Positions 1 through 54,867 of a stretch of DNA of 55,945 bases are shown here, piece by piece. Each line of letters opens with the position of its first letter. Within the stretch, counting starts at the first letter, position 1. Source of the stretch: a virus; IMG/VR virus record IMGVR_UViG_3300044491_002553, positions 1-55,945 of that record. One strand, written 5' to 3'. Below the pieces are notes generated by a model, which did no database searches, had not been told where the DNA came from, and worked only from the letters and a program-made list of their open reading frames with translations. The position numbers and the translations under genes are program-made.

Positions 1-161
1 GGAGCAGTAGGAATTTTATGTAATGGAGGATGATAACAACTATTAGTATGACCAGTAGTCAGATGTAAACTTACTTGTTTCCATTTAGCCAAACAGAAAC
101 TATCGCTTATATTTGCTAATTTATCTTTGGCTACAAGTGCATCTTGATAATAATCGCTCAC
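1..161 (-). CDS. Radical-SAM-type protein, N-terminal part (cut by window edge)
   Basis: An open frame starts at a GTG that overlaps the TGA stop of the upstream radical SAM gene (GTGA) and runs off the left edge after 53 codons. The visible residues include FCLAKWKQVSLHL and CYHPPLHKIP. This pattern is familiar from the N-terminus of twitch-type radical SAM proteins of marine phages, in which cysteines precede the radical SAM core. The CX3CX2C core would lie beyond the edge, so the family call is by resemblance of the N-terminus and by the neighbouring radical SAM gene. The coupled start suggests that the two are made together. Confidence 0.55.
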   Translation of the reverse strand, partial: MSDYYQDALVAKDKLANISDSFCLAKWKQVSLHLTTGHTNSCYHPPLHKIPTA

Positions 162-5358: not shown

Positions 5359-6276
5359 TTATGCGTGTGAGTTAGTTACTGTGCTAAATGTAATTGTACC
5401 AGCGTTATCAGAAATGTATGTTGTATCATGCTTTTCATATCTGAATGTTGTTCTTTTTGTTCCATCAACGGTATCTCGTACATTGTAAATACTTTTATTA
5501 AATCCTGTTTGTTCTGCCGCATTATCTACCCAAGTGCTTCTAAAATCAACAGTTGCACCTGAAGTTAGTGCTTCAAGTTGTATAAAGTTACTGGTATAAG
5601 CCGCATAACTCGCCGCAAATTGTTTAAAACATACTACAAATGAACCTGTCATGTTTTCCCATCCATTAGAGGTTGAACCACCAATACCATTTGTAGTTGC
5701 GGATCCTGAACCGCCTGATTTGCCTGAAGTACTCCTTGTAACATTAAATGTACCACAGTTATGTCCCAATGACTCCCAATCGTTTGATTTATTGGTGTTA
5801 CTATCACCTGATAAGTTCCAAGTGACTGAAAGTCTGCCACCTAAATTAAAGAAGTGTCTCAAATCAGTGGTTGAAGCCCAGGTAAATCTACCTGTTTGTG
5901 TAAGTGTACCTGTTAAGTTAGTGGTATTGTCAATGTTGTTTGATACTGGAATTTGCCTTTCATGTACATTCAATCTGTTGTTTGTGATTGTTGTGATATT
6001 TCCTGCTAGTGCTGTGAATGCCGCAATGCTATCTCCACCACTTGGTGATGTAATTGCTGTAATGCTTGAACTTTGATGATTGGCCATGCTACTGATTCTG
6101 CTCAACAGTGTTGACCATTGTGTTGCTTGTACTGTTACTCCATCACTTACACTTGCGACTGTGGTTGCATTACCATATCCAGCATCACCTGTACCTTCTC
6201 CCCACAATGCGTTGACTGACGTTGCAAAGTCATTATAGTGTGTATCTAGTATTGTGTCTCCACTTGTGTATGCCAT
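5359..6276 (-). CDS. Virion structural protein, probable tail fibre component
   Basis: A 305-residue Ser/Thr/Asn/Gly-rich protein. The start MAYTSGDTILDTHYNDF and the segment RHFFNLGGRLSVTWN match a type of structural protein repeatedly found in marine T4-like phages at the end of the fibre block; the latter pattern (FFNxGG) is the recognisable hallmark. Low charge and beta-prone composition fit a fibre or tip protein. The ribosome site AAAAGGA precedes the start. It is the last gene of the leftward fibre run. Its precise place on the virion is unknown. Confidence 0.6.
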   Translation of the reverse strand: MAYTSGDTILDTHYNDFATSVNALWGEGTGDAGYGNATTVASVSDGVTVQATQWSTLLSRISSMANHQSSSITAITSPSGGDSIAAFTALAGNITTITNNRLNVHERQIPVSNNIDNTTNLTGTLTQTGRFTWASTTDLRHFFNLGGRLSVTWNLSGDSNTNKSNDWESLGHNCGTFNVTRSTSGKSGGSGSATTNGIGGSTSNGWENMTGSFVVCFKQFAASYAAYTSNFIQLEALTSGATVDFRSTWVDNAAEQTGFNKSIYNVRDTVDGTKRTTFRYEKHDTTYISDNAGTITFSTVTNSHA

Positions 6277-14100: not shown

Positions 14101-17100
14101 TATCAGTTTCATGAAGTGCATACTCAATCAATCTAAAAAACAATTTGTTAAAATTAACAGCAAGTTCATTAACAAAAATATCATCTTTCAATGATTTAAT
14201 AATGTAACGTACTTCTTGACTTGTGTTTCTGTCATACTGTCCAAGATCAAATGCTGTGCCAAACACATCAAATGTTCCAACATCTGTGCTGTCATAATCA
14301 AAAAGTTTACTACTGAATTGTATTGTGCCATTTTCAATTATAACTTCAGACCATGTACCATCACTTTTTAGTTCAAAGAAACTAAAATTACCATCATCAT
14401 TTGTTAAAACTTTCGCTGTTTCTCCTGTTACTGCTGATGTAAGTGTCAGTAGATCTGCTTCAGTTTGAATTTGATAATTTGGTACACTTGCATTATTGTA
14501 TCCTGTAGAATAGTAATTTTGATAACTCCAATATCTTGTGGTATCAAAACTCTGTATTTGCACTAGATTCCAAGTTTTTGTAGCATCTAAATTATATATT
14601 GTCCAATAATTGTCGTTATTTTCATCTTCAAGCACAAGTACTTTATACCCTGTGGCTAATATTGCTGTGTTTAGAAAATCTCTCTCTACAATACTTGCAA
14701 CTTGTTTGTTCCATTTACCACTAACACTTGTAGGAATACTTTCTTTTTGCTGTAATCCTGTAATACTAGCACTTCTTGTGATAGGTAGTTTTGCTAATTC
14801 TTTATTTGCATACTGTACCATTACTTTAATAGCATGTCTATTGTTCTTAAATATACTCTGCCTTGGCCTATAACTTACTCCATATTTTTCTGCGTCACTT
14901 AAAAATGGATCTGGAACAGCGTTGCCCAATGAATCTATTCCGGATAAACTGTCAACTAATTTGTCATAAATTACTTTTGGAACAATACCATTTGCATCAT
15001 TTTCTGTTACAAGTTCAAATTCACTGTGTACCACATGATTGTTTTTCACCACATCAAAATCTACACTTAGTATTGTATCTTTACCTGAAAAGAAACTTTC
15101 ACAGTTAAACAAAGCAATTTGGTCTTTTGCAACAACACCACAATAACTAACACCTGCTGACTTTGGATTTTCAATTAATTTTGTAACACTGTCTATGCTG
15201 ATATTTCTAAACGCACTTTCTACTGGCACACTTACTTTGTTTTTAACCCAAAAGTAATATCTTATGTTAACAGTATTAGTTGCGGCATTATATATTTGTG
15301 CTGTGCTAAATTTGGTTATATCAAATGGAGTACCTTCTCCTTGATATTGCTGTGGAGGAGTAATACTTTCTACCCATTCATATACATCTACACTACTGCC
15401 TGGAAACAGTGTATTCCAATATTGTGTTCTATAATCATCACTGCCTTGTTCATAATTTATATAAGTTGCAGTATCTAGATTCCACCAAACTCTTCCTAGT
15501 TTATCACTTACCCAATCACCTTTGGTTGTATTTGATTCTGTGTAATCAGCAGGATCATATGGTGTCATATAGTCTATTTCTGCAAGTGCCTCACCTGCAA
15601 TTTTACCTTTTGCACCATCAATATTATCTAAGAAAATCTCTATCTGTTGAGAATCTTTGTTGTATAACATAATTCTGTTGATACAATCTACATCTACTTT
15701 ACTGTCTTGGCTTCTGTATTTGCTCCAACCATCTAGTCTATTTGTGTTTTTAAATTCGTAAACACTACCACCATCTGATTTTTGTGCATCATCATCTTTT
15801 GCACCAACAAAAAGTACATTATCTTGTAGTGATATTGCACTGCCAAAACTGTCATTTGTATCTATGTATTGACTGCTTAGGTGTTGTACAAAACCATATT
15901 GATTGTGATTTGTTACACTTTCATCCTTTGCACCAAGCAACTGATAAACATATCCAGCACCACTGTTTGGTTTCTTAGTAATAAATTGTGTGCTGTTTTG
16001 ATCAAATGTAGTTGTGTACTGATTGTATGTTGCACTGTTTTGAATGGTGTTTAGATCAAATCTTGTTCTTATCACACTACTTGCTTTGTCACTGCTGACC
16101 ACAAGATTGTAAGTGTAAGTTTTTCCGTTTCTGTTGTCTACATATTTGTCAAATGCAACTGATCTACCAAAGTTTTCATTTTCGGCCTGCAGAGGATGTG
16201 TAATTTTTTGTATAAATGTAAATGGTTTAATTCCTGCTTCTGATAATGTATCACCTACACCTTTAGTAACTGTTAATTTATTATCTACTGCTGTGTTTGT
16301 ACTGATGATTTTAATTTGACCATTTACATTTTCTGCTGTCACATTAGGAATATTTGCGTTAACAATATCTGTAACCAACTTGTTAGGATCTGTGCTTGTG
16401 TCACTGACTGATACTTCTCTGCCATTAACAAAAATACTATCACTGCTTGTGGTAGCATATGTACCATCAATGCTTGTAATCTCTCCATAACGTTTGGCTG
16501 TGTTCACATATACTAAAACACTTCCTGTGTTTGGATTAATTTCATCTTCGCCTGGTGAACCTACAGCAACGTAACTGCCTTGAGTATCAATACCAACACT
16601 AAATCCAAAGTTCTCACTGTCAGTAACTGTTTGTCCTCCAAACCCGTCTTGGTCTATTGTTTGTGTAAGTTCCCATGTACCTGTAAACACTTCAATTACA
16701 TCACCATCACTTGGTGTTGCTCTCATTGTGATTACATTTCCTGCCCTACTGTAAAATCCATCTGAACTTCCATCACCACCTGCTTCACCAGTTGTTAGTG
16801 TTTGTATAATGCCATTTTTCTTAACTGTAATACCAACTGTTGGGAGTGTTGTAGTGGTTGTAAAAGCAGTCGTAACAGCATCACCTATAAAAGTTTCAAT
16901 CACTTGATCAAATACATGAGCCTGTCCTGCGTTTGATACACTATCAACTGTGGCATAAGGAGCACCAGCAACAAATGTATTACCTTCGTATGTTGCGTCT
17001 AAACTGGTACCTAAAGCATCACTACCACCGATTCCAGCAACAGTCACAGAATCTGTCTGTCTAAAATAACTGTTTTGTCTAACAACAACCTTTATGCCAT

Positions 17101-20100
17101 TTGCTGGTGCAGTTGTAAAAGTAATATTACTGCTACTGATTGTAAAATCACTGCCTGGAAAGTATACTTTGCCATTACTATCAAGCACATTCAAAGCACT
17201 GACATGCACAGGAGTAAAACCTAATGCAAATTCAGTGGTACTAGCATCACCAGTGGCTGTGTAGTTTCTCTGCAATGTTGTAGACAATGCTTCATACTGA
17301 TAGGTGTAAATCTTGTTATCACCAGGAGCAGTAATAAACATGTATCTATCATTTCCAGTCACATGAACCTGTGTTCCAAAGTTTTCGCCTGCGGCTCCAA
17401 TAATACTTTGGAAATGTGTTAAAGCACCATCACTTCCAACACTATAAACAAACACCGCACCCTTATCAGTGGCTGTATCAGGAGCACCTATAGCCGCATA
17501 CTGTAGTCCTAGGCCTATTGCGGCTCCAAAACTATCTACACTACTGCTTATATCAGCAACTGTTATACTGTTTGCTTCTTGTAATGCTCCACCTGATGTT
17601 GTTCTGTTATAAGGCACAACTTTACCTGTACTGCTTTGTGGTGCACCAACCAGTGCTTGGCTGGCACCTTGGCTAATTGCTACTGCTTGACCTAAATTGC
17701 CATTTGCTACAACACCTGATGTACTTTTGGTACCTGTGCTACTGAATGGTTCGTTTTTGTAAAAGACTGCCCATTTGTTATTTTCATCACTGTCCACCCA
17801 AACCTTTTCACCTTGGTTCCATCCCATTAAAGGAGTTGCTGTGCTGACATCTTTTAATTGTGTAAATCTACTTGTTGCCACTTTAAACAGAGGTTCTTTT
17901 ATACCTTGAACTCCTACTTCAGTAGTAAACCCTAGCACAATAACACTGGTTGGTGAAGCAACATTTACAACTTTGTGAAAACCTCCCACAGTAAATGTAC
18001 TTTGTATAAAGAACCAATCATTTTTTACTAAATTATGATCACTGTCAAAATTAAATCTAACTTGATTGTCTACAGCACTAACATCAACTGACAGTAAATT
18101 TGCCCTTGTCTCTTGAATACGTCTGACATCCCAAGTTGCACCACTTTTAGCAAACCAAATTTTATCGCCTCTGCCCACTAGTGATTTGTTTGCATCTAGT
18201 TGTTTTAAATTGTCAATGTTGTAACTTGTGTATTCAATATCATCAAGTCTAACATATCCGGCATCTTGTATTTCATTGTTTGTGTGTGTTGTAGTATCCT
18301 GTAATTTAAAAACACTTGCATTATAGTTTGCTGGTACTTTGTATAAATCTTTTTCGCTGTAATGATTATGGTTAGGATTGACAGTTGTTGTGTGTACTTC
18401 ACCATCTTCATGAAAATGTATAACATTTGGATTGGCTTGTGCAGTTGCTTCATCAATTGCAATTTCTATTATTTGGTTACTTCTTGTACTGCCATATTCA
18501 CCTACTCTAAATCCCCATTCTTCATAAAAATTAATACTCTGATCGTAGTTTGTTAGATTTGCATTGATCAATTTATTGATACTACTGGTACTACCTTTTG
18601 CTCCAATAAGTCCTTGATAAAATTTAACTTGACTGATATCATCTAATCCTAAATTTTCTAAATAGTCTCTTTTTCTAAATCCAAGTTGACCTTTTGCTAC
18701 TTGGTCTACTTGATTTTCTAAATTCAAATCGTCTATGTTATAGAAGTTTTCTAATTGGGTACTTCTGTTGTTTAGATTTGGCAGTAATCCAGTTTTTAAA
18801 TCACTTTGTTTCCAATATTCAAAATCAAACTTTGATTGACCTGTATGATCAAGTTTAGCAACATACACAAGATTTCTATAGGTAACTATATCACCTTTTT
18901 TATAATCTTGATTAGCGACCCAGATGTCATAGATATTATCATTTATAATAAATCCTGGAGCATGAATTGTACCATCCCAATCACCACTCTTGAAACCTAT
19001 TAATTTTAATCTATCTTGTCTACTGCCTAGTTCTGGCTGATAGATAACATCACTGAAAATAGTTTTGTTGTTGAACACAACAACATGTTCATACTGAATA
19101 GGATCAACACTTACAGCATAGATGTTTTCTTCATCAGTGTTAACAAATATGTCTGTGGTGTTACCAATTCTACTGACATCATAGTTTTTTGGTCTAATCA
19201 ACTGTCTATTTTCGTTACGTAAATATCCAGTCTTAGAAATATCATCTACAGTGGTGTATTGTCTTTCTACTTGTATTCTATCAAATATAGGACTTAAGGT
19301 AATAACACTGTCTATTGGCCACTGTTGATCGTTCCAAAACACAAACTCTTTTGCCGCTAACACTAAATCCTGTGGCATCCCATTGCCTAAAGCATCAATA
19401 AATTTTATGCCTTTTAACTTTAACCAACGCTGATATGCTATCAAGAAATCAAACATCTGTTGTGGTGTTTGTATAACAGTACCATACGGAATACCAACTA
19501 TTGTGTTTTCAAAATCTTTATATTCAACATAACTTATATTACCCACACTGTGTAAATTACTGTTTGCACTTCTTGTGCTAGGCACAATATTAAAAAATGG
19601 ATAATCTAAATCGTAACCTTGTACTTCAAAACCATTTGCTCTTTTAATAACCTGCACACCACTGTAAGATACTTTTTCCAATGGTGTAGATTTATGTGTT
19701 ATCAATTCATAATCTTCATCAGGTATAAATGTGTTTTGTTGAGTGCTTGTAGGTGTTGCATTTTCTGCCACAACTCTCAAGAAACTTTTGTCTGCATATC
19801 CTGAAAGTTTGTATGCAAGATTTACATTTAAGTTTTGTATTCTTGTTTGTAGGTCTGTAACATTTACACCAAGATATGTACCATACTCACCAACAAATTG
19901 ATTGTATCCTAGCGTCTGTCTAGTTCCACTGTTGATGTAAAATTCTGTGAGAGTAGGTCTGTATGCTTTTGTTTTTTGTAATATCTGTGTCCATCCTGTC
20001 TGATTTGTATCAAACAGATTAGTATCAAACATTAAAGTTCCATACTTAGCAGGCTTTCTCAACATTGCTACAATCTGTACAACATATGGCCATTCACTGC

Positions 20101-23100
20101 TTCTTCTCCATGCAGTTTCAACAGGATCACCATCACCAAAAATAAACTTGTCACTTGTGTTTGCACTTGTGGCATCGACACTTAAAAACTGTGCAGGACT
20201 TTTCAACGCACCTTGTTCATCTACTGGAATAAAATCTAAAAGTGTGCTACGTTTGTATTTTTCTAATACTGTATAAGCAGTGCCACTTGCATCACTGTAT
20301 AATTTTCCATCACGTAGGTCTTCCCAAAGAATACTGTTACCTGATGTATAAGGTGCAGGGCCATATCTGTTGGTCCACCAATTAGGTTTTACACTTAAAC
20401 CCAGCATCTCCCATGGTGTGGTGTTTGGAGTTTCAGTGTCATAAAACCATCTGTAAATGCCTCTCCAATAACCTGGCAATCTACTGCTGTTGGTTTTTTC
20501 TACAGCATTTTTATAGTTCCATGTAAATGGTTGATCTGCATCAAATACAGTAGTGCTGTTGATAGCAATACTGTTTTTATTACTCCATTGTTGGAAATAT
20601 TTGTTGATTATTCTGTTGACTTTACTTAATTCACTAGTGGTGTTTCTAAAATAGCCTGGTAAAACTTCTGCATAATCAATTAAATTTCTATTGTAGTTTG
20701 TTTTTATATTGTTGTAAATTCTTTTTTCAAGTTCTAGTATAATATCATCACGAATGTCTCCATACCCAACCCATCTGCTACCATCATGTCCTATAATAAC
20801 AGTTTGATCAACAACATAACTAGTGTCTGTGATTTTTTGTGGCACAAATTTATTGTACAATCCTAATTTTGTTGGTGTAGGTGGTATAAAGTTTCCATTG
20901 GTGTTGCTGTATTCAACAATTTTTACAACATCGTCAACAGCAAGACTTACTGTGCTTGTAAAAATTACTGCACCTTCACTTGTGTCAAAAGTATAATCAT
21001 TGTCTATACCAAATACTTTCAATTCATTGTTGATGTAAACTAAAACACCTTGTCTGGATTCAGTGTCAAGATCGAACTGACTGTTGAATGTAAAAAATGT
21101 TTCACTTGTGTCATCTACTGTGTGAGTAGTGGTTGTTCCTGTGTTACCCCAAGGCACCATATCACTGTAGAAAAATGGAAATACATCTGTCTTTCCGCCA
21201 ACCATAGATGATAAAATATCGTCAACAGTTTTTGATTTATTTGTCAAGTCTAGATCTAGTGTGTTTAAGTTTTCAATAAATTTATTTTTAAATCTAGTGT
21301 ACTCATTTTTGGTATAATCTATAGCAGGTATTACATTTACATGTGGATTTGTCATCATGTAAATTGGCAAAATTGCACCTGCACTGTGCTGTAAAATTTT
21401 TCCTTTGTATTTGCTATATGGCAGGTCTCTGATGTTACTGAATCCTGGTGTTGAACCACTGAACTCTACAATGTGCTGACTAATAACACTGAGATGATTT
21501 CTCATTTGTCCAAGTGTAAGTGTTGTAAAGTTTGCATTGTTACTGTTATTTTCTAGGTTATCTGGTATTTCGTAGTAACTGTTTTTTCCTTTGATGTCCT
21601 TGTTGTAGATTTTTATTGTAACAATATCACCAACAGTCCTATTGGTTGCAAAATTAACAGTGTAATCACTACCTATAGTATACTCACTGTCTTTGATAAT
21701 TTTTCCATTTACAAATACTTTGATATTTTTTTCTGTGTCTATGGTGTACGGAATTTCATAATCAAATTTTGTAAGATTATTTTCGTTTACTGTGTAGTTG
21801 TACACTTGAAATTGCTTACTTTCTTGTGCAATTTCTGTCCAACCATTGACAATAGTCCTAACATTACTGCTGTCAAACTGATGTGCATGTCCGCTTCGTA
21901 AAATAACATTTACTAATTTTCCATCTTTGGTGTATTGAAATGTATCAGTTTCAAAGTTATTGTCAAAAAGTATGTCGCCTATGTTGTTTAAATTCCTATA
22001 ACTTAGACCAAATCCCAACACAATATCTGCAGATGCACTACTGTTTCTTTTATAACTGAACAGTTTAGATCCTGCAAAAGTACTGCTTGGATATGTTGTT
22101 TCGTCATCAAAATTAACATGATTTTGATCATTTAAATTAAAAAGAGGTTCTTGGTTAAGTGCAGTTTTTTGCTGTGTTTCTTTCCAGACGCCTGTAGATT
22201 GATACACAAAACTTTTGCCTTGATTTGTTGCACCTAGTGTACTAACTACAACGTTATTTGCAACAACTGTGCTTGTTTCTGTTAACTGTATAATTTTATC
22301 TGTACTAGCAACATTATCTTCATCTATTAAACTTATTGTGTATACTTTGTTTCTTACATCTGCATCAGCGTCTTTAGTGAAAATTATTGTCATTCCAGGT
22401 GCAAGTTCTATGCCATCGCTGAAATATCCTATTTTACCATTTACATTAGACAGTGCATCTGTTTGTGTTGTATCTACAATATCTGCAGGTGCAATACCAA
22501 CTTGTCCAAAATTATAAAGTTCAAGTCCAGGCAAAAATTCAATAATAGGTCTTGTTGCTCTTTTATCATCATCTATAATTAGCGTGTAATCGTTGTACAC
22601 CGCGGTTTTCTCTATTACATCTCTGTGGAACCAACGATTTATACGACTCCATGGATTTCTATCATTACTTGCTCTATTAATTACAATGTAATCTTGTTCA
22701 AGAGGTTCTGCTCTACTTCCCTCAAAACCAGTTTCATCATAACCACTCTTGTCATATGGTTCACTGGCAGTTGTAATAAATGTTTCTGGAGATATCAATT
22801 CATCTACTGGCACAAGATCAATTTTTGTTCCTACACCTTCCACATAATATTCTTTGTTTGCATAACTGGTAGGTGTCACACTGCTATCAAATGCCACTTT
22901 TAGTCCATTAGTAAATGTAACTCCGTTTGGACTTGTAAATTCACTTCTTGTTATAATATCATTTATATCTAAATTTGGTTGTGCATCTATTTCAACTAGT
23001 TTTATTGTTCCAAATCTAGTTGAATCTGTTGCATCAGCATAAAAAAATGTGTCTTGTTCAGCAACCAAAGGTGGAACAATTTGATAAAAACCTTCAGCAT

Positions 23101-24253
23101 CACGATAAAACTGTCTGTTGCCATATGCTTTACCATTATTGATTTTTACTCTGTTGAGATTACTTACACTGCTGACTTCTTGTAATTTTATAACATCTAC
23201 ACCACGTATAGATTCTGTTGTAATTTTGTAAACTCTACGTCTTGCGTCAGGAGTAAGTGCTGTTACTGGATCAAAAGTTCCTGTATCACCTTCAAGTGTT
23301 CCGCTATCAAATCCTTCAGCATCATATAAAGCACCAACTTCCCAATCAGTTTCAACCACACTGTTGTTGATGAAAATAATATTTTTTCCAACAATCTCTG
23401 TAAAGGAATCAATTCCATCTGCAAAATTACTCAATAATTGATTGTGAATACTGCTGTATGTTCCATTGTATGCTAAATCAACAGTGGTTGCTACAGGCAT
23501 GTTTGTATAGTACAATTGACTGTCTTTTTGTGGTACTGTCCATGTTATGGTGCCAACGTCATCACCATTGTTGGTCACTCCAGGCACTTCTCTGGTGCTG
23601 ATATTTTTTTGTGCGGCACTGATACCTGTTGTACCTGATTCACTTTGTATCCAAAATGGATGTCCTAGTTGATTTACTTCAAATGTATAACTTCCGCCAC
23701 GTGCAAGATATACTATTGGATTTTCGTCTGATGTTTCATTGTCAAATCTAAAACTTTTTTCATTTGGATCTGTGCTTCTATACACTGTAAAACTTTTGGT
23801 TGTAGGCACAATGTTGGTGTACACTGGCACACTATCTGGTCCACTGGGTAACCAAAAGTACTCACCGTAATTGACCAATTTATCTATGTCAACAAATCCA
23901 CTGTAATTGTAGTATTTTTGTTTGAAAAGACTGTCGTGATTAACAGCATCTTCTCCATAATATTTGATACTGTTCAAATAATCTATGTAAGTTGATACAC
24001 TTTCTACTGTATTACTGCTGTTTTTATATACAACAGAAGGTTCCAGTTGATAGTTTTGTCTTTCTACATCTATTTCGGTCAAATAGGAATCTTTAGCAGT
24101 ACGATTTAATGCATCTCTTCTGCCTATAAATCCACTTAGTCTCTTTTTGCTAGGTTCACTATACAGTTGGTCTGTCGTGGCATTTAAAAACTTTTTGTTT
24201 TTATTTGTTTGAAAGACACCTGGTAATAGTGTACTAGTTTTTCTAATAGCCAT
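11159..24253 (-). CDS. Giant virion protein, probable baseplate/tail component
   Basis: A single uninterrupted 4364-codon gene following gp6 with a TAATG overlap, where T4 places gp7 and other wedge genes. Residues ~175-250 look like a cupredoxin-like beta domain (VYLARGGSYTFEV, GHPFWI). Around 1940-1965 is a histidine-rich stretch (FHEDGEVH, NPNHNHY). Residues ~2190-2820 hold repeats resembling FG-GAP beta-propeller blades (NLGQAVAIS, ENFGFSVGID, ENFGRSVAF, DSFGSAISL, each followed by VGAP/VGSP-like strands). Near 3500-3570 are paired GSGYT repeats. It is most likely a modular baseplate-attached structure or fibre; which T4 protein it replaces is unknown. Confidence 0.7.
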   Translation of the reverse strand: MAIRKTSTLLPGVFQTNKNKKFLNATTDQLYSEPSKKRLSGFIGRRDALNRTAKDSYLTEIDVERQNYQLEPSVVYKNSSNTVESVSTYIDYLNSIKYYGEDAVNHDSLFKQKYYNYSGFVDIDKLVNYGEYFWLPSGPDSVPVYTNIVPTTKSFTVYRSTDPNEKSFRFDNETSDENPIVYLARGGSYTFEVNQLGHPFWIQSESGTTGISAAQKNISTREVPGVTNNGDDVGTITWTVPQKDSQLYYTNMPVATTVDLAYNGTYSSIHNQLLSNFADGIDSFTEIVGKNIIFINNSVVETDWEVGALYDAEGFDSGTLEGDTGTFDPVTALTPDARRRVYKITTESIRGVDVIKLQEVSSVSNLNRVKINNGKAYGNRQFYRDAEGFYQIVPPLVAEQDTFFYADATDSTRFGTIKLVEIDAQPNLDINDIITRSEFTSPNGVTFTNGLKVAFDSSVTPTSYANKEYYVEGVGTKIDLVPVDELISPETFITTASEPYDKSGYDETGFEGSRAEPLEQDYIVINRASNDRNPWSRINRWFHRDVIEKTAVYNDYTLIIDDDKRATRPIIEFLPGLELYNFGQVGIAPADIVDTTQTDALSNVNGKIGYFSDGIELAPGMTIIFTKDADADVRNKVYTISLIDEDNVASTDKIIQLTETSTVVANNVVVSTLGATNQGKSFVYQSTGVWKETQQKTALNQEPLFNLNDQNHVNFDDETTYPSSTFAGSKLFSYKRNSSASADIVLGFGLSYRNLNNIGDILFDNNFETDTFQYTKDGKLVNVILRSGHAHQFDSSNVRTIVNGWTEIAQESKQFQVYNYTVNENNLTKFDYEIPYTIDTEKNIKVFVNGKIIKDSEYTIGSDYTVNFATNRTVGDIVTIKIYNKDIKGKNSYYEIPDNLENNSNNANFTTLTLGQMRNHLSVISQHIVEFSGSTPGFSNIRDLPYSKYKGKILQHSAGAILPIYMMTNPHVNVIPAIDYTKNEYTRFKNKFIENLNTLDLDLTNKSKTVDDILSSMVGGKTDVFPFFYSDMVPWGNTGTTTTHTVDDTSETFFTFNSQFDLDTESRQGVLVYINNELKVFGIDNDYTFDTSEGAVIFTSTVSLAVDDVVKIVEYSNTNGNFIPPTPTKLGLYNKFVPQKITDTSYVVDQTVIIGHDGSRWVGYGDIRDDIILELEKRIYNNIKTNYNRNLIDYAEVLPGYFRNTTSELSKVNRIINKYFQQWSNKNSIAINSTTVFDADQPFTWNYKNAVEKTNSSRLPGYWRGIYRWFYDTETPNTTPWEMLGLSVKPNWWTNRYGPAPYTSGNSILWEDLRDGKLYSDASGTAYTVLEKYKRSTLLDFIPVDEQGALKSPAQFLSVDATSANTSDKFIFGDGDPVETAWRRSSEWPYVVQIVAMLRKPAKYGTLMFDTNLFDTNQTGWTQILQKTKAYRPTLTEFYINSGTRQTLGYNQFVGEYGTYLGVNVTDLQTRIQNLNVNLAYKLSGYADKSFLRVVAENATPTSTQQNTFIPDEDYELITHKSTPLEKVSYSGVQVIKRANGFEVQGYDLDYPFFNIVPSTRSANSNLHSVGNISYVEYKDFENTIVGIPYGTVIQTPQQMFDFLIAYQRWLKLKGIKFIDALGNGMPQDLVLAAKEFVFWNDQQWPIDSVITLSPIFDRIQVERQYTTVDDISKTGYLRNENRQLIRPKNYDVSRIGNTTDIFVNTDEENIYAVSVDPIQYEHVVVFNNKTIFSDVIYQPELGSRQDRLKLIGFKSGDWDGTIHAPGFIINDNIYDIWVANQDYKKGDIVTYRNLVYVAKLDHTGQSKFDFEYWKQSDLKTGLLPNLNNRSTQLENFYNIDDLNLENQVDQVAKGQLGFRKRDYLENLGLDDISQVKFYQGLIGAKGSTSSINKLINANLTNYDQSINFYEEWGFRVGEYGSTRSNQIIEIAIDEATAQANPNVIHFHEDGEVHTTTVNPNHNHYSEKDLYKVPANYNASVFKLQDTTTHTNNEIQDAGYVRLDDIEYTSYNIDNLKQLDANKSLVGRGDKIWFAKSGATWDVRRIQETRANLLSVDVSAVDNQVRFNFDSDHNLVKNDWFFIQSTFTVGGFHKVVNVASPTSVIVLGFTTEVGVQGIKEPLFKVATSRFTQLKDVSTATPLMGWNQGEKVWVDSDENNKWAVFYKNEPFSSTGTKSTSGVVANGNLGQAVAISQGASQALVGAPQSSTGKVVPYNRTTSGGALQEANSITVADISSSVDSFGAAIGLGLQYAAIGAPDTATDKGAVFVYSVGSDGALTHFQSIIGAAGENFGTQVHVTGNDRYMFITAPGDNKIYTYQYEALSTTLQRNYTATGDASTTEFALGFTPVHVSALNVLDSNGKVYFPGSDFTISSSNITFTTAPANGIKVVVRQNSYFRQTDSVTVAGIGGSDALGTSLDATYEGNTFVAGAPYATVDSVSNAGQAHVFDQVIETFIGDAVTTAFTTTTTLPTVGITVKKNGIIQTLTTGEAGGDGSSDGFYSRAGNVITMRATPSDGDVIEVFTGTWELTQTIDQDGFGGQTVTDSENFGFSVGIDTQGSYVAVGSPGEDEINPNTGSVLVYVNTAKRYGEITSIDGTYATTSSDSIFVNGREVSVSDTSTDPNKLVTDIVNANIPNVTAENVNGQIKIISTNTAVDNKLTVTKGVGDTLSEAGIKPFTFIQKITHPLQAENENFGRSVAFDKYVDNRNGKTYTYNLVVSSDKASSVIRTRFDLNTIQNSATYNQYTTTFDQNSTQFITKKPNSGAGYVYQLLGAKDESVTNHNQYGFVQHLSSQYIDTNDSFGSAISLQDNVLFVGAKDDDAQKSDGGSVYEFKNTNRLDGWSKYRSQDSKVDVDCINRIMLYNKDSQQIEIFLDNIDGAKGKIAGEALAEIDYMTPYDPADYTESNTTKGDWVSDKLGRVWWNLDTATYINYEQGSDDYRTQYWNTLFPGSSVDVYEWVESITPPQQYQGEGTPFDITKFSTAQIYNAATNTVNIRYYFWVKNKVSVPVESAFRNISIDSVTKLIENPKSAGVSYCGVVAKDQIALFNCESFFSGKDTILSVDFDVVKNNHVVHSEFELVTENDANGIVPKVIYDKLVDSLSGIDSLGNAVPDPFLSDAEKYGVSYRPRQSIFKNNRHAIKVMVQYANKELAKLPITRSASITGLQQKESIPTSVSGKWNKQVASIVERDFLNTAILATGYKVLVLEDENNDNYWTIYNLDATKTWNLVQIQSFDTTRYWSYQNYYSTGYNNASVPNYQIQTEADLLTLTSAVTGETAKVLTNDDGNFSFFELKSDGTWSEVIIENGTIQFSSKLFDYDSTDVGTFDVFGTAFDLGQYDRNTSQEVRYIIKSLKDDIFVNELAVNFNKLFFRLIEYALHETDNQPDWVIKTSFLKVLHKVRNLDQYPTFKYDNQTFIEDFINETKPYHTKIREYVPSYAKLDTYGSDVTDFDVHSYYDTVEGRFRKPDGSLTGDTAKLSDGLNKPWNDNYGYKLSSIVIQSGGTGYIVNPTVTISAPQLSGGVTATATAITNGDKIIRVNITNYGSGYTQTPTVTVEGSGTGADLLPRIENNTTRDFDTTLKFDRITYSSTVKDWAKNTSYSVNDIVAYQNTTTRTQEVYTVTTAFTSGDTFSTENSSGTTVMTVYADEDFSTAADRIAGYYYPSEGMLGDDIGLLQNGTTYPGSVIEGPSFSDEPGFDSGNFDTVQFDSFEIDTDGLTVLGGGSLLDTKIESLFTDLSLGQRPEDIDIDGGAFVDTYNSHAPEELVPGRVFDTLDMEVYTDPGDDYEANGNGWRSQVKSFLGDGTTRTFAYGQEFGSKTDFEFHIVYIDTTRQSTGYNIDYRDQTVSFDTAPTVGQTVHIYSHAGTGEKMTVDKTFIADGSTSIFTLGQSTSTIQQLYVFVNGVLTTTSFTGVDNRTAISFSSAPPQGAHIHIFGFNQSSTRDAMSILSVEDKSLTSGTLVYSLSNTIKYAQPMEGNVVVELDGHRLRPSNTVYHTATGSETNFAISTTAGESAPAGIGDIRVAKISSGVTTNLVANDDYSYNSATGEVTPVVQPSNGDIIIVGNVANAEYLISADGTSITLDGAVSFTTGQTLKITSFSNHDPLRIRTQVFVGTGNGGRGYGSYLVGRTATDNAYLWVTHDGVRLHPGDFILEDDILILSEAYKDITTGSTELIVTQYTQNTVQDTLGFRIFYDMLGVNQYRRLAVENTTFTTQDVSPTDTKIYVNNANALPFASRESTTPGVVFIGSERITYWEISYEDHFITGLRRGTGGTTFTDFIEKETTVVDGGLDQELPASDTHTKTWYDLGTGNAADGNGLQQSTTTNANFLKEKKAELPNFLKEGNEGRYLVDDYVETGYVE

Positions 24254-39300: not shown

Positions 39301-39477
39301 ATGTCTATACACGAACAAATTATACAACAATACGAAACATACATCAAAGAGTCAGAGGCTTTTGAAACTAAAGGTGTAAAAGCCTCGGCCACAAGAGCCA
39401 GAAAAGCACTTGGCGAAATTGGAAAACTTTCTAAGTCAAGACGTGCAGAGATTCAGGAAAAAAAGAACAGCATGTAA
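39301..39477 (+). CDS. Small basic protein, 58 residues
   Basis: An ATG follows a good ribosome site (TAGGAG) and opens a 58-codon frame whose TAA overlaps the next gene's ATG (TAATG). The C-terminal half, KGVKASATRARKALGEIGKL then SKSRRAEIQEKKNSM, is strongly basic and helical. It matches a small protein I have seen repeatedly in marine T4-like phages and may bind nucleic acid like a histone-tail or HU-arm peptide; the function is inferred. The coupling on both sides supports a real gene within the gp47-gp46 operon. Confidence 0.75.
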   Translation: MSIHEQIIQQYETYIKESEAFETKGVKASATRARKALGEIGKLSKSRRAEIQEKKNSM

Positions 39478-40370
39478 TGATTCGTGATTTCACTGAATCT
39501 AAAATTTTACACATTGAGGCAAGTAGCATTTGTAATGCCGCTTGTCCTATGTGTGAAAGAAACGTAAATGGTTTCGGCCAAGCACCAGGATACACCCCTA
39601 AAAACTTGCCTTATGAATGGTTTGTAGAACATAAACAAACTATTTCTGGTGTGGAAAAAATTTATTTTTGTGGTAATTTAGGTGATTCTGCAAGTAATAA
39701 AGACCTTTTAAAAATAATAAAATACATAAAAACTGTTAACTCACAATGCACTGTTGGTCTAAACTCGAATGGCGGTTTAAGGAGCCGTAAATTTTGGCAT
39801 GATCTTGGAAAATTGCTGAATGGTAACTTAGATTATGTTGTTTTTAGCATTGATGGATTAGCCGATACTAATCATTTGTATCGTTGGAATGTACAATGGA
39901 AAAAAGTTATGCAAAATGCACAAGCATATATTGACGCTGGCGGAAGTGCCCATTGGGATATGTTGGTGTTCAAACATAACGAACACCAAGTAGAACAATG
40001 TCTACAACTTGCAACTGACATGGGATTCACATGGTTTAGAAGTAAAGAAACAAATCGTTGGAATCAAAAAAATATTCCTAGTTTACAACCTAGTACACCT
40101 TTTGAATCTATAGATTACAGCAACATAGTTGACATAGACTGTGAAAGAGACAGAGAACGTAGCACCTATATTGATTATCTAGGACGCAGTTGGCCCTGTT
40201 GCTATTTAGGCAACAAGCATTTTTCAGATACTGGCAATAAACACATAGATGTTACAAAAAATTACAGACAAAAGATACAGAATAAAAATGCATACATGAC
40301 CTGTAAAGAAAGTTGCGGCAAATTCACAAGTAAACGCACACAATGGAAAAGAGAAATACAGATTAGATGA
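39477..40370 (+). CDS. Radical SAM protein with variant GGE motif and C-terminal twitch/SPASM cysteines
   Basis: A 297-residue radical SAM enzyme, the first of a three-gene cassette. The CX3CX2C motif is C19-C23-C26 in SICNAACPMCERN. The usual GGE loop is replaced by FCGNLGD (64-70). A SIDG strand (124-127) follows, and C222, C241, C242, C276 and C280 could bind an auxiliary Fe-S cluster as in SPASM/twitch enzymes that act on peptides. It shares this layout with the third gene, so they are likely paralogues with linked substrates. Its stop overlaps the PP-loop start (ATGA). Confidence 0.85.
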   Translation: MIRDFTESKILHIEASSICNAACPMCERNVNGFGQAPGYTPKNLPYEWFVEHKQTISGVEKIYFCGNLGDSASNKDLLKIIKYIKTVNSQCTVGLNSNGGLRSRKFWHDLGKLLNGNLDYVVFSIDGLADTNHLYRWNVQWKKVMQNAQAYIDAGGSAHWDMLVFKHNEHQVEQCLQLATDMGFTWFRSKETNRWNQKNIPSLQPSTPFESIDYSNIVDIDCERDRERSTYIDYLGRSWPCCYLGNKHFSDTGNKHIDVTKNYRQKIQNKNAYMTCKESCGKFTSKRTQWKREIQIR

Positions 40371-44740: not shown

Positions 44741-46762
44741 ATGGCAGTCACCGTAGATATTCCTGGAATTGGGCAAGTCGAAGCATTTAATGCCGCTAGT
44801 GAACAAACACTACAGCAGATTGCGGCCCTTTTGAGTGGAACCAGCAGTAGTTTTACACAAGCATCGCTGAATCGTTTGGGTGCGGCCAGTTCTAGAGCAA
44901 CAGCGGCTGAAAACAGAAACACCAGAGCCAAAGACAGAAACACAGCACAGATCACAGATGAAACCAGTTCATTGGCAAAACTAGGCAATGCATACAGACA
45001 AGCAGAAATCACTGCCAATCAAAGAAGTATGAATGTTTCAGGCAAAATAGAAAGCATGACCAGAGCAATACAATCCGGACCATTCAACTTTATACAAACA
45101 GCATTTAAAACATTTGGTGAAAAATTAGCAACCTTAGGCACACTGATAGGCACAGCAGGTGCGTTAACAGGATTGCTAGGAAAAGTAGGTGTTGCTGTAG
45201 GAGCCGCCGTAACAGCAATAGGGGGTTTAGGTGGCTTGATGGCAATGCTGGCCAAAACCATGGGAGACACCAATGAGGCTTTTAGAGCCACAGCAAACTC
45301 AGGTGCAATTCTAGGAGGTAGTGTGCTGGCATTCCGTGAAGCATCACATATGTCGATGTTAACAATGACACAGTTCAGTGCAGTGATGGCAAAAGCCAGT
45401 GCTAGTATGGCAGTGTTTGGTGGTACTACTCTTGAAGGATCTAGAGAATTTGCTAGGGCAAATAGAATACTTGTTGATCAGTACGGTACAGATTTATTGA
45501 GAGCAGGATTGACATTCCAAGATATGGGTGTAGCAACTGCTGATTTTTTAGCCAACTTGAAAGAAAGTGGAGAAGGTTTTAACCAAGTTGCTGTGAGCAG
45601 TAGCAGTATTGCTGATGGAACTGCAAAATTAGCCATGCAACAGAAACAATTGGCGGCATTTAACGGCACAACACTGGAACAAGAACGAGAAAAACAGAGA
45701 GCCGCAAGAAAAGATGCACAACTTAACATGGTGATGATGGGCATGGATGCTAAACAGAGGGTAGCAGTGCAACAATTGACACAAACATTTCCGCAGTTCA
45801 GGCAGTTTATATTAGAAAGCGTTGCATTTGGTGGCCCTATTAGAAAAGAAACTTTGATGCAACAACAATTAATGGGCACAACCACAGGTATTCTCACCAA
45901 CACATTAAAGCAGGTTCAGGCAGGATCTCTAGATGGCAGTGCGGCCATTAAAATGATTCAAGATCTCAGCAAAGATAATCCTAAGATCAGAGCAGAATTA
46001 CAAAATCAAGCACAGATTGGAATATTATCAATTGCAGGCAGTCAAAATTCTCTTGTAGCCACAGCAGGACAAAATTTTCAAGCACAGTTTGAAATTGTTA
46101 CTAAAAGTCTTGCTGATGTGGGTAGATTGATACAACAAGATGTTGAAGCATTTGAGAAACTAAGAAGCAACATGGATCCATTGACTGATGCAATAACAAC
46201 TATCACAAAAGACATGCAGACAGCACAGATCAATTTTAGTAGAGCAGTCACAGGAGCATTTGGAACAGGTGTTGGCAGTATTATTATGGGTATAATGAAA
46301 TTGCCTACACAACTTCTTAATCTACTCAGTGGAGGAATAGTAGCATTAACTGGTGCAAACAGAGGAGCAGGTTATATAGATCAACTGTTGGGTTTTACTA
46401 ACCAAGCAACAGGACCAGGAGGTGGTACACCACCAACTCCACCTGGTGTCATACAAAACAACAATACTATTGCTAGGCCTACAGTAAGAACTGATCCACA
46501 AGGTAATGTTTCAACATTGACTCCTCCTCCAACAGCATTAAATCCAAATGACCCAGATTACGAACGTAAATTTGCTGACCTTCTAGCAAAGGTACAAAAA
46601 GAGATGTTGGAAAAACAACAAAAAATAGCAGAACAGAAAAAACAAGAAAAAGAACAGGATTTTCAAAATTTAACCGCTATGGTAAACAATGCAACCACAG
46701 GATTGGGCAATAAAATTGTTGGTGGTTTGGAAGATGTAAAGAAAGCAGTACAGCACGGTTAA
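44741..46762 (+). CDS. Probable tail tape-measure or tail-lumen protein (gp29-like)
   Basis: A 673-residue protein with Ala/Gln-rich helical regions, a hydrophobic Gly/Ala-rich stretch at about 130-170 (GTLIGTAGALTGLLG, GAAVTAIGGLGGLMAML), a second at ~515-545, a Pro-rich hinge (GGGTPPTPPG) and a highly charged coiled tail (KEMLEKQQKIAEQKKQEKEQ). This is the profile of tape-measure proteins, which set tail length and enter the membrane. T4's equivalent gp29 has 590 residues. Its place before gp20 and opposite gp26 agrees with a tail role, but the homology was not tested. It has a late promoter upstream. Confidence 0.6.
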   Translation: MAVTVDIPGIGQVEAFNAASEQTLQQIAALLSGTSSSFTQASLNRLGAASSRATAAENRNTRAKDRNTAQITDETSSLAKLGNAYRQAEITANQRSMNVSGKIESMTRAIQSGPFNFIQTAFKTFGEKLATLGTLIGTAGALTGLLGKVGVAVGAAVTAIGGLGGLMAMLAKTMGDTNEAFRATANSGAILGGSVLAFREASHMSMLTMTQFSAVMAKASASMAVFGGTTLEGSREFARANRILVDQYGTDLLRAGLTFQDMGVATADFLANLKESGEGFNQVAVSSSSIADGTAKLAMQQKQLAAFNGTTLEQEREKQRAARKDAQLNMVMMGMDAKQRVAVQQLTQTFPQFRQFILESVAFGGPIRKETLMQQQLMGTTTGILTNTLKQVQAGSLDGSAAIKMIQDLSKDNPKIRAELQNQAQIGILSIAGSQNSLVATAGQNFQAQFEIVTKSLADVGRLIQQDVEAFEKLRSNMDPLTDAITTITKDMQTAQINFSRAVTGAFGTGVGSIIMGIMKLPTQLLNLLSGGIVALTGANRGAGYIDQLLGFTNQATGPGGGTPPTPPGVIQNNNTIARPTVRTDPQGNVSTLTPPPTALNPNDPDYERKFADLLAKVQKEMLEKQQKIAEQKKQEKEQDFQNLTAMVNNATTGLGNKIVGGLEDVKKAVQHG

Positions 46763-51343: not shown

Positions 51344-52528
51344 ATGTCAGACGTACTATTAGAAAGCCGTTGGAAAGACACTAAAGATACTCTTCTAGAA
51401 GGTCTAGAAGGTGCAAGACGTAATTCGATGGCTGTTGTGTTAGAAAACACAAAGAACTACTTAACTGAAGCCGCATCATCAGGTGCAAGTGCTTCAGGTA
51501 ACATTGCAACACTTAACAGAGTAATTTTACCTGTTATCAGACGTGTAATGCCTACAGTTATCGCTAACGAAATCGTTGGTGTTCAACCAATGCAGGGACC
51601 AGTTGGTCAAATTCACACATTAAGAGTAAGATATGCAGATTCAGTAACATCAACTGCTTCTTCTCCGTTTGATACCAACACTACTGCAGGTGATGAAGCA
51701 TTATCACCATTTAAAATTGCAACTGCTTATTCCGGTTCTACATCAACTGGTAGAGCAGATAATACAGCCGCTAAAGAAGGTACTGGTGGAAATAAACTTT
51801 CAATCCAGATCTTAAAGCAACCTGTAGAAGCAAAGACAAGAAAGTTACAAGCAAGATGGACTTTTGAAGCCGCTCAAGATGCTCAGTCAATGCACGGTAT
51901 CGATGTTGAAGCAGAAGTAATGGCCGCTTTAGCACAAGAAATCACAGCAGAGATTGATCAAGAAGTGATCGGTTCATTAAGAAGTTTAGCCGCAACTGAA
52001 GAAACTTTCAACCAAGCCGCTGTTTCAGGTACTGCAACATACGTTGGTGATGAGCATGCCGCTCTTGCTGTTTTAATTAACAGAACTGCTAACAAAATTG
52101 CACAAAGAACAAGAAGAGGCGCTGGTAACTATGCAGTGGTTTCACCACAGGCATTAACTGTACTACAAAGTGCAAGTACTTCAGCATTTGCAAGAACTAC
52201 AGAAGGTTCATTTGAAGCACCAACAAACACTAAGTTTGTAGGTACATTAAATGGTGCAATGAGAGTATATGTAGATTCATATGCCGCTGATTCTACAGCA
52301 GTACTAGTAGGATACAAAGGTTCATCAGAAACTGATGCTCCAGCATTCTACTGCCCATACATTCCATTAATGTCAAGCGGTACTGTACTAGATCCAGATA
52401 CATTTGAGCCAGTAGTAAGTTTCATGACAAGATATGGTTATATCGAGTTATCAAACACTGCAAGTTCATTAGGTAACGCTGGTGACTATGTAGGTGAAGT
52501 TGCAATGAGTAACATTTCATTCTCATAA
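51344..52528 (+). CDS. 23: Major capsid protein gp23
   Basis: A 394-residue HK97-fold capsid protein. Signature parts are NRVILPVIRRVMPTVIANEI and VGVQPMQGPVGQIHTLRVRY, then RKLQARWTFEAAQD and a late CPYIPLMSSGTVLDPDTFEP. A probable maturation site is LTE|A (cleavage after E42), fitting the gp21 consensus of cleavage after glutamate. Shorter than T4 gp23 (521), as in marine T4-like phages. RBS is AGAGGAG. A strong hairpin terminator follows the gene. Confidence 0.95.
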   Translation: MSDVLLESRWKDTKDTLLEGLEGARRNSMAVVLENTKNYLTEAASSGASASGNIATLNRVILPVIRRVMPTVIANEIVGVQPMQGPVGQIHTLRVRYADSVTSTASSPFDTNTTAGDEALSPFKIATAYSGSTSTGRADNTAAKEGTGGNKLSIQILKQPVEAKTRKLQARWTFEAAQDAQSMHGIDVEAEVMAALAQEITAEIDQEVIGSLRSLAATEETFNQAAVSGTATYVGDEHAALAVLINRTANKIAQRTRRGAGNYAVVSPQALTVLQSASTSAFARTTEGSFEAPTNTKFVGTLNGAMRVYVDSYAADSTAVLVGYKGSSETDAPAFYCPYIPLMSSGTVLDPDTFEPVVSFMTRYGYIELSNTASSLGNAGDYVGEVAMSNISFS

Positions 52529-52552: not shown

Positions 52553-52580
52553 AAAACAGGGCTTCGGCCCTGTTTTTCTT
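52553..52580 (+). terminator. Strong intrinsic terminator after gp23
   Basis: A perfect 10-bp stem AAAACAGGGC/GCCCTGTTTT closed by a TTCG tetraloop and followed by TCTT. It ends the head-gene transcript just before the porin cassette's late promoter. Confidence 0.9.
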
Positions 52581-52587
52581 TGGTTCT

Positions 52588-52595
52588 TATAAATA
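52588..52595 (+). promoter_or_regulatory. T4-type late promoter for the porin gene
   Basis: The perfect late octamer TATAAATA lies 8 bases after the gp23 terminator and ~95 bp before the porin ATG. It shows that the porin is under phage late control, not carried silently. Confidence 0.75.
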
Positions 52596-52689
52596 AAATG
52601 TTACGTTTATAACGAACACAATTAATTTTTAATGTAAAGTTAAGGATTGTAAAATAAAAAAACCCCCAACTTAATAAGGAAAAATAATA

Positions 52690-53679
52690 ATGAAAAAACT
52701 ACTAGCAAGTGGTGTTTTAATAGCATTACTAAGTACGACTGCATTGGCACAAGAACCGGCAGTTGAAAAAGGACCAAAGTTTGCCATTTCAGGTACAAGC
52801 GAGTTCTACTACAAAGACGTTGATTCTCAAATTGCTTCACAAAAAGGTGATAGTATGGGAAACAGTGACAACGAGATTAAATTTACTTTTTCTAATAAAT
52901 CAGATGCTGGTTTAGATTATGGTATGGTTGTTGAAATGACAACAGTTGCAGACTCAAGTGCAACTATTGACGAATCATCAATTTATATTTCAGGATCTGC
53001 AGGAAAACTAATACTAGGTGGTAACGATGCAGTTACTGACAACTTTGGTATTGGTGAGCAGGACATTATGGACGAAGAAGTAACAGGTACATATACAAAT
53101 GCTTCAATTCAATCAAATGCAGGAGAAAAGACATATGGTGACGATCTTGACAAAGTATCATACATTTCTCCAAGTTTTAGTGGAGTACAGGCTGGCATAA
53201 GTTATATGGATTCAGGTGCAACAGGTACGAATGATTCAACTTCATATGGTGCAAGTTACACTCATGAAAACATCAAAATTGGTTACACAAAAGGTATGCA
53301 AGAAGTATCAGGTGCAATTGACAATGAGTCACAGAGCATTGGTGCAAAAGTATCATTTGGTGACATTGCCATTATTGGTGCAATGAGTACTGTAGAAGGT
53401 GCAGACGAAGACATTGAAACAATTGGAGCAGGTGCAAGTTATGCAATTAATAACACTACAACTGTTGCAGTTTCAACTATGGAATCAGAAGATGCATTAG
53501 ACGTATCAGGTACAGAAAAAGAAAACCTAAAGCAAAACATGGTAGAAATCAAACATGCTATTGCACCAGGTTTAACTGGTTATGTGAACTACACAGACTA
53601 TGAGTACAAGAACGGTGGAGAAGCATCAACAGATGACGATGGTTCAGTGTTACAATTTAAAATTGCGGCAAAGTTCTAA
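52690..53679 (+). CDS. Outer-membrane porin
   Basis: A 329-residue Gram-negative porin. It has a clear Sec signal peptide (MKKLLASGVLIALLSTTALA, cleavage before Q21), a beta-barrel of alternating short strands and acidic loops, and the C-terminal phenylalanine (KIAAKF) that the BAM machinery needs. Such porins carry small solutes through the outer membrane and can serve as phage receptors. It probably came from a host; a SAR11-type source is possible. Between gp23 and the sulfotransferase, it has its own late promoter, AAGGA ribosome site and terminators on both sides. The gene is intact. Likely roles: superinfection exclusion or altered uptake. Confidence 0.85.
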   Translation: MKKLLASGVLIALLSTTALAQEPAVEKGPKFAISGTSEFYYKDVDSQIASQKGDSMGNSDNEIKFTFSNKSDAGLDYGMVVEMTTVADSSATIDESSIYISGSAGKLILGGNDAVTDNFGIGEQDIMDEEVTGTYTNASIQSNAGEKTYGDDLDKVSYISPSFSGVQAGISYMDSGATGTNDSTSYGASYTHENIKIGYTKGMQEVSGAIDNESQSIGAKVSFGDIAIIGAMSTVEGADEDIETIGAGASYAINNTTTVAVSTMESEDALDVSGTEKENLKQNMVEIKHAIAPGLTGYVNYTDYEYKNGGEASTDDDGSVLQFKIAAKF

Positions 53680-53700
53680 TATTAATATAAATTATAGGAG

Positions 53701-53725
53701 TAGCACCTTTGGGTGCTATTTTTTT
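53701..53725 (+). terminator. Intrinsic terminator after the porin
   Basis: TAGCACC, TTTG loop, GGTGCTA (7 bp perfect) followed by seven T residues. It also lies just beyond the end of the convergent sulfotransferase gene, whose direction lacks a U-run. Confidence 0.88.
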
Positions 53726-53729
53726 GACT

Positions 53730-54356
53730 TTAATACCAACCATTTGCATAATCTTCTAGCATAATTTGTTCAATACGCAAACATTGTAGATCATTAGGAC
53801 CAACTCTTATTGTATTATCTTTACGATGATGAATGGTACCTGTCGGCACATCTAAAAGTTCAGCAATTTTATGTACTTCTTTGTAATAAAAAATATGAGT
53901 ATAGATGTTACGATCAGAGCCTAATCTAGCAGTATTTGATTCACAATGATCTCTTACATTCATACTATTTTTGTGATAATATTCATAATTTTTTAAAAAT
54001 TCGTCCAGTGTTTTTTCACCTATCCACAGTTGGTCTTGTGCACCAGTAGGACTAAACATTGTATGGTGGTATCCGCTTACAAATTTATCTACAGGATCAC
54101 GCCAAACTGCTACACGCACATCACATTCTGCAAGTTCTTTTTCATACTCTTGAAAATAATTTTTCTTGATGTAAACCCCTGGAACATTCTGCTCAAATGT
54201 TTTATATGCTTGCACATCATGCACATCTGCATTCCAAAGTACATGGGCCACATAACTTAGTATGCTGGTACTTGCACATTTTTGATTGCGTACTATTCCC
54301 CATGTTTTGTTTTTGTATTGAAATTTTAAAAGTGACATCGATAAATACTTATGCAT
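53730..54356 (-). CDS. Sulfotransferase family protein
   Basis: A 208-residue protein with the two PAPS-binding signatures of sulfotransferases: NQKCASTSI (24-32) as the 5'-phosphosulfate loop and RDPVDKFVSGY (86-96), with R86 and S94 as the 3'-phosphate contacts. It resembles the Sulfotransfer_2 type that acts on carbohydrates. A histidine or acidic base cannot be fixed by eye. It is convergent with the porin and divergent from the small virion gene. Possible acceptors are sugars or virion glycans; the GT-like genes elsewhere would be partners. A second in-frame ATG at residue 7 could be the true start. Confidence 0.75.
   Translation of the reverse strand: MHKYLSMSLLKFQYKNKTWGIVRNQKCASTSILSYVAHVLWNADVHDVQAYKTFEQNVPGVYIKKNYFQEYEKELAECDVRVAVWRDPVDKFVSGYHHTMFSPTGAQDQLWIGEKTLDEFLKNYEYYHKNSMNVRDHCESNTARLGSDRNIYTHIFYYKEVHKIAELLDVPTGTIHHRKDNTIRVGPNDLQCLRIEQIMLEDYANGWY
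54340..54347 (+). promoter_or_regulatory. Late promoter for the small virion gene
   Basis: GATAAATA followed by CTT, one base from the late octamer, 86 bp before the ATG. It lies inside the start of the sulfotransferase gene. A GTGAGT-GGA-ACTCAC hairpin (54392-54406) lies in the leader, before the AAAGGAG ribosome site. Confidence 0.55.
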
Positions 54357-54432
54357 ATAAAATTATGCTTATGGGGAACACCAACCTCGTAGTGAGTGGA
54401 ACTCACATCGGACTTCTGAAAGGAGAAAACAA

Positions 54433-54867
54433 ATGGGAAGACCAATTAAATCAGCCGAAACAGTAGGCGGAACATCAAAAGTAGCGGCTGCTAACACAGT
54501 ATTACCAATTGGCTCAAGTGGCCTTAGTGGTAATCAGATGATTATGCAGGCATTTGTAACAAGTGGAAGTGCTAATGCTACCACAAACATCATCCAAAAA
54601 GGTAATAAGAAGTTTCGTGTTACTACTTCAGACGGCACAGAAACTTGTGTATTGACATCAGTTACAAGTGGTTCACTAGCGGCAGGTCAGTGTCAGATCA
54701 CTGGTACAGACAGTGCAGGTGGTACTTATTTTGCAAGTCAAATCACAGGACGTCATTTTGTAGTAGGTGCATTAGGCACAGGCTCACAATTTGCAGTTGG
54801 TGATAAAGCATTACTTGTGGCATCAGGCCCAGTAGAAAACGTAAGTGTTTCCGTACCAAACGGTTAA
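54433..54867 (+). CDS. Small virion structural protein
   Basis: A 144-residue protein starting MGRPIKSAETVGGTSKV, with QKGNKKFRVTTSDGTETCVL and a repeated KFxVTTxxGT-type strand pattern. This is a compact beta-rich structural protein type widespread in marine T4-like phages, probably a capsid- or tail-associated protein. It has an AAAGGAG ribosome site, a leader hairpin and a late promoter. Its exact position in the virion is unknown. A terminator/promoter module follows. Confidence 0.65.
   Translation: MGRPIKSAETVGGTSKVAAANTVLPIGSSGLSGNQMIMQAFVTSGSANATTNIIQKGNKKFRVTTSDGTETCVLTSVTSGSLAAGQCQITGTDSAGGTYFASQITGRHFVVGALGTGSQFAVGDKALLVASGPVENVSVSVPNG

Follow-up and report, generated by a model that had tools for sequence, protein, structure and literature searches.

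The window, that is, the whole stretch of DNA that was analysed, is a virus record of 55,945 bases. Among named phages, its major capsid gene (gp23) is nearest to those of jumbo T4 relatives, with 62-66% identity, for example Sinorhizobium phage Phosso (469 kb), Vibrio phage 2.275.O (349 kb) and PA5oct (287 kb). An IMG/VR contig of 328 kb (G992) is collinear with much of the window and has a gp23 that is ∼80% identical; the window phage is a relative of the T4-like jumbo phages. The region downstream of gp23 contains a porin gene within a compact set of predicted expression signals, followed by a second insert and the ancestral neighbour of gp23:

51344 to 52528, plus strand: major capsid gene gp23, the upstream neighbour, given as context outside the cassette (Pfam Gp23, E=1.9e-99)
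52553 to 52576, plus strand: predicted intrinsic terminator after gp23, with a 10-pair stem and T-run, in the same place in L001-L003
52588 to 52595, plus strand: predicted T4-type late promoter, TATAAATA, an exact match; (T/A)ATAAATA is kept in relatives
52596 to 52689, plus strand: 5' leader, shared with phages that have the porin at another locus
52690 to 53679, plus strand: porin gene, with a Porin_4 match, relatives in at least 20 viral contigs and evidence of purifying selection
53696 to 53723, plus strand: predicted intrinsic terminator after the porin, AGCACCTTTGGGTGCTATTTTTTT, with a near-identical one in relatives
53730 to 54356, minus strand: sulfotransferase-like gene (weak sulfotransferase matches), the other insert that separates gp23 from its ancestral neighbour
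54340 to 54867, plus strand: GATAAATA promoter, freshwater-2 RNA leader (54353-54435) and an ORF that begins with MGRP and is the ancestral neighbour of gp23

The porin ORF is intact from ATG to TAA and encodes a protein of 329 amino acids (P0001), which when read by eye has a signal peptide at residues 1-20 (MKKLLASGVLIALLSTTALA|QE) and a C-terminus, KIAAKF, that ends in phenylalanine, both as claimed in an earlier note on this DNA. Residues 10-308 align with positions 4-309 of the 310-position Pfam Porin_4 model (PF13609) with an E-value of 1.7e-29 and a score of 104.1 bits, the curated cut-off being 27 bits. No PHROG was assigned to P0001, and searches against 50,697 phage records, or as a single sequence against the PDB, returned no match; a profile that included cellular relatives matched Omp32 (1e54/2fgr, E=1.1e-6) and PorB. 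Fold models were of low confidence, with a pLDDT of 32.5 from 9 alignment rows and a mean pLDDT of 45 from 12 mature rows, the C-terminal half of the latter model being the better part and forming a regular 11-strand meander; rows from SAR116, which might have given more alignment depth, were left out. The best PDB matches of this model were nevertheless all porins (BpsOmp38, Omp32, OmpU, OmpC and 2por), which lends support, short of proof, to a porin fold. The gene can be regarded as the real, intact porin that the earlier note described, given the Porin_4 and Omp32 sequence matches and the structural neighbours of the model, while of the barrel that was to be looked for in structure prediction, the model shows the C-terminal meander and the porin matches, at a mean pLDDT of only 45. 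The protein has 50 acidic and 18 basic residues, a make-up that resembles that of host porins, and L3 and acidic residues are conserved.

The predicted promoter is not significant by count alone, since TATAAATA occurs 3 times in the window against 5.7 expected. Its motif is, by position, strongly concentrated upstream of genes: NATAAATA was seen 6 times in upstream intergenic stretches of the window (0.03 expected), 24 times upstream of genes in the 328-kb relative (0.44 expected), 8 times in a 98-kb relative (0.31 expected) and 19 times in further contigs (0.25 expected), with expected numbers derived from the coding rate. Upstream of the porin, (T/A)ATAAATA is kept in L001-L004, L006-L012, L016 and L023-L025, both in the lineage of the window and in phages with the gene near terminase (L006 and L009 types), whereas at a third locus (L005, L014 and L015) the porin has a CTAAATA form instead, which is also enriched upstream of genes in G992 (8 against 0.8). 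A crude scan found 6 terminator-like sites in the region against 6.8 expected, that is, no excess, so that support for the terminators comes from their position and their conservation in relatives. Indeed, a near-identical terminator stands behind the porin in L001-L006 and L014 despite differing neighbours. The leader contains a conserved stretch, CCCCCAAC..TTAA..AAGGA, at 52663-52683, just before the ATG, which recurs as CCCCCCAACCTTAAGGAAAATAAAATG in L006, where the porin is at a different locus. This stretch travels with the porin gene, as does the AGCACC..GGTGCT terminator in most lineages, and the order of terminator, promoter, leader, porin and terminator is conserved in relatives, including phages with the gene elsewhere. 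The upstream concentration of the motif and the retention of the cassette thus bear out, at the level of sequence motifs, the earlier proposal that the gene has its own late promoter between flanking terminators. The shared terminator was also considered as a seed for recombination; three exact copies in G992 and one in the window were insufficient to make that claim.

In G992, gp23 is followed by a terminator, CATAAATA, a freshwater-2 leader and, directly, the MGRP ORF, with no porin; L245 has the same porin-free arrangement. The sulfotransferase-like gene that adjoins the porin in the window has a 57% identical relative in G992 at 313.1-313.7 kb, away from gp23, and is perhaps independent cargo. 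Other relatives hold different cargo between gp23 and the MGRP ORF, and the space that follows gp23 serves as a cargo site in L241 (3650-4393), with an ORF of 247 amino acids that looks HNH endonuclease-like by eye, and in L242 (5261-6364), with an ORF of 367 amino acids. In L246 the same gap has two tandem glutamine riboswitches (5450-5504 and 5508-5561), followed only by a short ORF. The freshwater-2 RNA (RF02980) is a conserved leader that, close to gp23, separates the MGRP ORF from a late-type promoter in each of these jumbo phages (54353-54435, plus strand, in the window; L182 5998-6074; L245 2952-3025; L241 4400-4476; L246 5785-5872; L001 9653-9731). Elsewhere in the window, a single ORF of 4,364 amino acids (11159-24253, minus strand) is alignable in part to G992 at 35%, and an ORF of 673 amino acids, with the portal gene on one side and a T4 baseplate gene on the other (44741-46762, plus strand), matches no family and lacks a counterpart in G992. 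Several genes for radical SAM proteins, one of which includes a SPASM domain, were observed at 158-1153 (minus strand) and 39477-40370 (plus strand) of the window and at 13215-14363 (minus strand) of L016.

The porin itself is present in G992, where an 88% identical gene is located at 193.5 kb, ∼108 kb from gp23. In L006, L008, L016 and L025 it is situated between the gene behind terminase and a gene preceding uvsX, a site that is porin-free in G992. Across related jumbo phages the gene therefore occupies, in single copy, three non-orthologous positions, two of which are empty in a relative. It is present at one of the 80 nearest gp23 loci, many of which are short fragments, and every porin contig searched has one copy. 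A moron carries its own promoter and terminator, which are predicted here, and its site is unoccupied in close relatives, as observed in G992 and L245. The designation as moron-like in the earlier note is consequently strengthened by the empty sites and the three locations, and a mobile cassette with a late-type promoter is well supported by comparison of the genomes. In L013, a G999-type leader (1-71) is fused to the porin and followed by terminase-locus genes, which points either to recombination or to a chimeric contig end.

Comparison of the porin with its neighbours revealed a further level of movement. The gene next to the porin is 99.4% identical between L006 and L025 (99.4% at fourfold sites), whereas the porins are 88.7% identical (80% at fourfold sites). 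Similarly, at fourfold sites L001 and L003 share 94% in gp23 against 81% in the porin, while the window and L001 show the opposite pattern, with 59% in gp23 and 79% in the porin. G999 and G992 have the porin at the same locus and many genes with 85-98% identity, yet their porins are only ∼76% identical; the G999 porin is 89% identical to that of L016, which is at the terminase locus. These identities go beyond what shared descent alone would give, and exchange of porin alleles between phages is the simplest account of them.

Distant relatives of the porin were found in 155 of 385 Alphaproteobacteria. Within the SAR116 order (Puniceispirillales), 64 of 136 genomes have a match, many of full length, the best with an E-value of 5.6e-70 and ∼40% identity; no cellular gene closer than this was found in the genomes searched. 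The best SAR116 matches are from loci of 29-35% GC, and a low-GC SAR116 subclade of ∼30% GC has been described (PMC8547437). In a tree all phage porins group together (support 99/97) with the SAR116 porins next to them, and since the phage porins are monophyletic a single old capture is likely on phylogenetic grounds, with long branches blurring the exact donor. A connection to SAR11, which the earlier note had suggested be examined by phylogeny, was not borne out: none of 5 Pelagibacterales genomes, and then 3 of 197, had matches, these being weak and partial, and an origin in that order was rejected in favour of SAR116. The family of G107 provided the best match in a first class-wide sample, yet was only distantly related and was also rejected as the cellular source. 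A scan of genome contigs with the phage profile, which relied on two short patterns and misses relatives of 40% identity, found no relative, and viral contigs searched with SAR116-type profiles gave the same phage family or nothing. The porin, as the one indication available, suggests that SAR116 bacteria may be the hosts of these phages.

The gene is intact in all lineages and is under purifying selection, with pN/pS between near relatives of ∼0.08 in the outer loops and ∼0.18 elsewhere. Synonymous divergence is equal in the two partitions (pS of 0.309 in loops and 0.319 in the rest of the porin), whereas pN is 0.025 in the loops against 0.058 elsewhere; Fisher tests of nonsynonymous and synonymous counts in loops against the rest gave p=0.004 for a first set of pairs and p=0.022 for a second. 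When pairs of like divergence were compared, the loops were the more divergent part in 16 of 20 pairs from SAR116 but in none of 41 from phages, the pairs not being independent. Loop entropy is correspondingly low in phage porins and high in host porins, and all outer loops are frozen in the phage proteins, L8 most of all and beyond L3 alone. The loops were delimited by inspection, with the model of mean pLDDT 45 as the only check, and in the N-terminal half their limits come from inspection. Within the modelled half, variability along the barrel axis falls outward in phage porins (rho -0.33, with 0 of 166 rotations as low) and rises outward in host porins (rho +0.29, with 1 of 166 rotations as high). 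With the loops most conserved in phages and most variable in SAR116, and synonymous rates equal, the conservation looks like the product of selection.

A scheme that would accommodate these data is that a jumbo T4-like lineage captured a general porin of SAR116 type, once and long ago, and that the gene has since passed between related marine jumbo phages as a single-gene cassette, which brings its leader and terminator along and comes under the late-type promoter of the phage that receives it. In late infection the protein would be exported to the outer membrane of the host and form a 16-strand barrel there, presumably as a trimer, as in its family. With synthesis of host porins stopped, the phage porin would present constant outer loops in place of the variable host ones, such that competing phages that bind host porins would adsorb less well while the channel remained open. 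The timing, membrane insertion, trimeric state and effect on adsorption are all predictions of the scheme, and surface remodelling as the most likely role of a captured, mobile and late porin of SAR116 type is given a probability of about 45%. Among the considerations against it, superinfection exclusion in T4 is an early function, which makes late timing odd, and conserved loops could also denote a conserved vestibule for a given solute.

The strongest alternative, a credible though less favoured one, is that during long jumbo cycles, with host synthesis stopped, the porin keeps or raises uptake and its loops shape the pore mouth. P0001 belongs to the general diffusion porins, its L3 and acidic residues are conserved, the gene is under purifying selection, and a marine viral porin beside amtB has been read as uptake-related (PMC8115048). 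However, the charge make-up is like that of host porins, so that no new selectivity is visible, every outer loop is frozen rather than L3 alone, and no uptake genes adjoin the cassette. For a porin that would be made late and exported and whose outer loops are constant, a change of surface fits best and the conserved mouth of an uptake channel would be nearly as likely; sequence alone cannot separate the two, and any choice between superinfection exclusion and nutrient entry is inferential. It is a good deal less likely that the late porin dilutes a receptor-active host porin so that released virions are not wasted on fragments of lysed cells. The late-type promoter beside the capsid gene and the frozen loops would suit this, but much of the surface would need replacing within one infection and these phages have no known receptor. 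A passenger of little effect, maintained by frequent exchange, is disfavoured: absence at all but one of the 80 gp23 loci nearest to that of the window, the single copy per contig and the restriction to some relatives would agree with it, but not the pN/pS of 0.08-0.18, the intact reading frames, the more constrained loops or the promoter, which appears to have been kept or swapped in working form at each locus. The location beside gp23 might suggest a virion component, for example a capsid decoration, but this is improbable, and the earlier idea of a porin riding in the virion found no support, because P0001 bears a signal peptide, is predicted to form a membrane barrel and, further, is encoded at different positions in other phages. 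Bacterial contamination or an assembly chimera, conceivable for metagenomic material and for the contig end of L013, is least probable of all given the same gp23 junction in L001-L004 from separate samples, the phage genes that flank the porin at all three loci and the ∼40% identity of the closest cellular gene in the genomes searched.

Phage-borne porins are already known from lambdoid phages and marine contigs; mobility, the late-type promoter and inverted loop conservation are the new elements here. The OmpC/OmpD/NmpC-type porins of lambdoid phages are likewise complete genes carried as morons, and OmpF is matched across 80% or more of its length by 42 phage records. In lysogens of phage PA-2, its Lc porin changes the set of porins at the surface, and PA-2 itself then adsorbs less well. 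Lambdoid phages are, however, temperate and enterobacterial and carry another branch of porins, whereas the present phages are T4-like and jumbo, with a porin of SAR116 kind behind a late-type promoter. The sole virus-encoded porin found by literature search, an OmpL-like protein encoded with glnK-amtB on contigs from oxygen-poor ocean water (PMC8115048), is similarly a predicted barrel from marine viral contigs, but is a Bacteroidetes-type gene in a nitrogen operon as opposed to a single-gene late cassette. Comamonas/Delftia Omp32 (1e54, 2fgr) and Neisseria PorB fall by profile in the same trimeric 16-strand family, but are cellular and distant in sequence from P0001. Closer are the full-length SAR116 homologues, in which the loops vary most, whereas in the phage porins they vary least.

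A broader and more tentative proposal is that marine jumbo phages share a pool of one porin, its loops locked by selection in the reverse of its cellular kin and its alleles swapped across genomes and loci, as a uniform in which infected cells would differ at their surface from the variable host population. Many phages use porins as receptors, and the diversity of bacterial porin loops is usually credited to phage pressure; a phage porin under opposite selection offers a natural contrast by which that idea becomes testable. The findings further show cargo moving between fixed sites in the genomes of jumbo T4-like phages, and suggest that SAR116, which are abundant ocean bacteria, host such phages.
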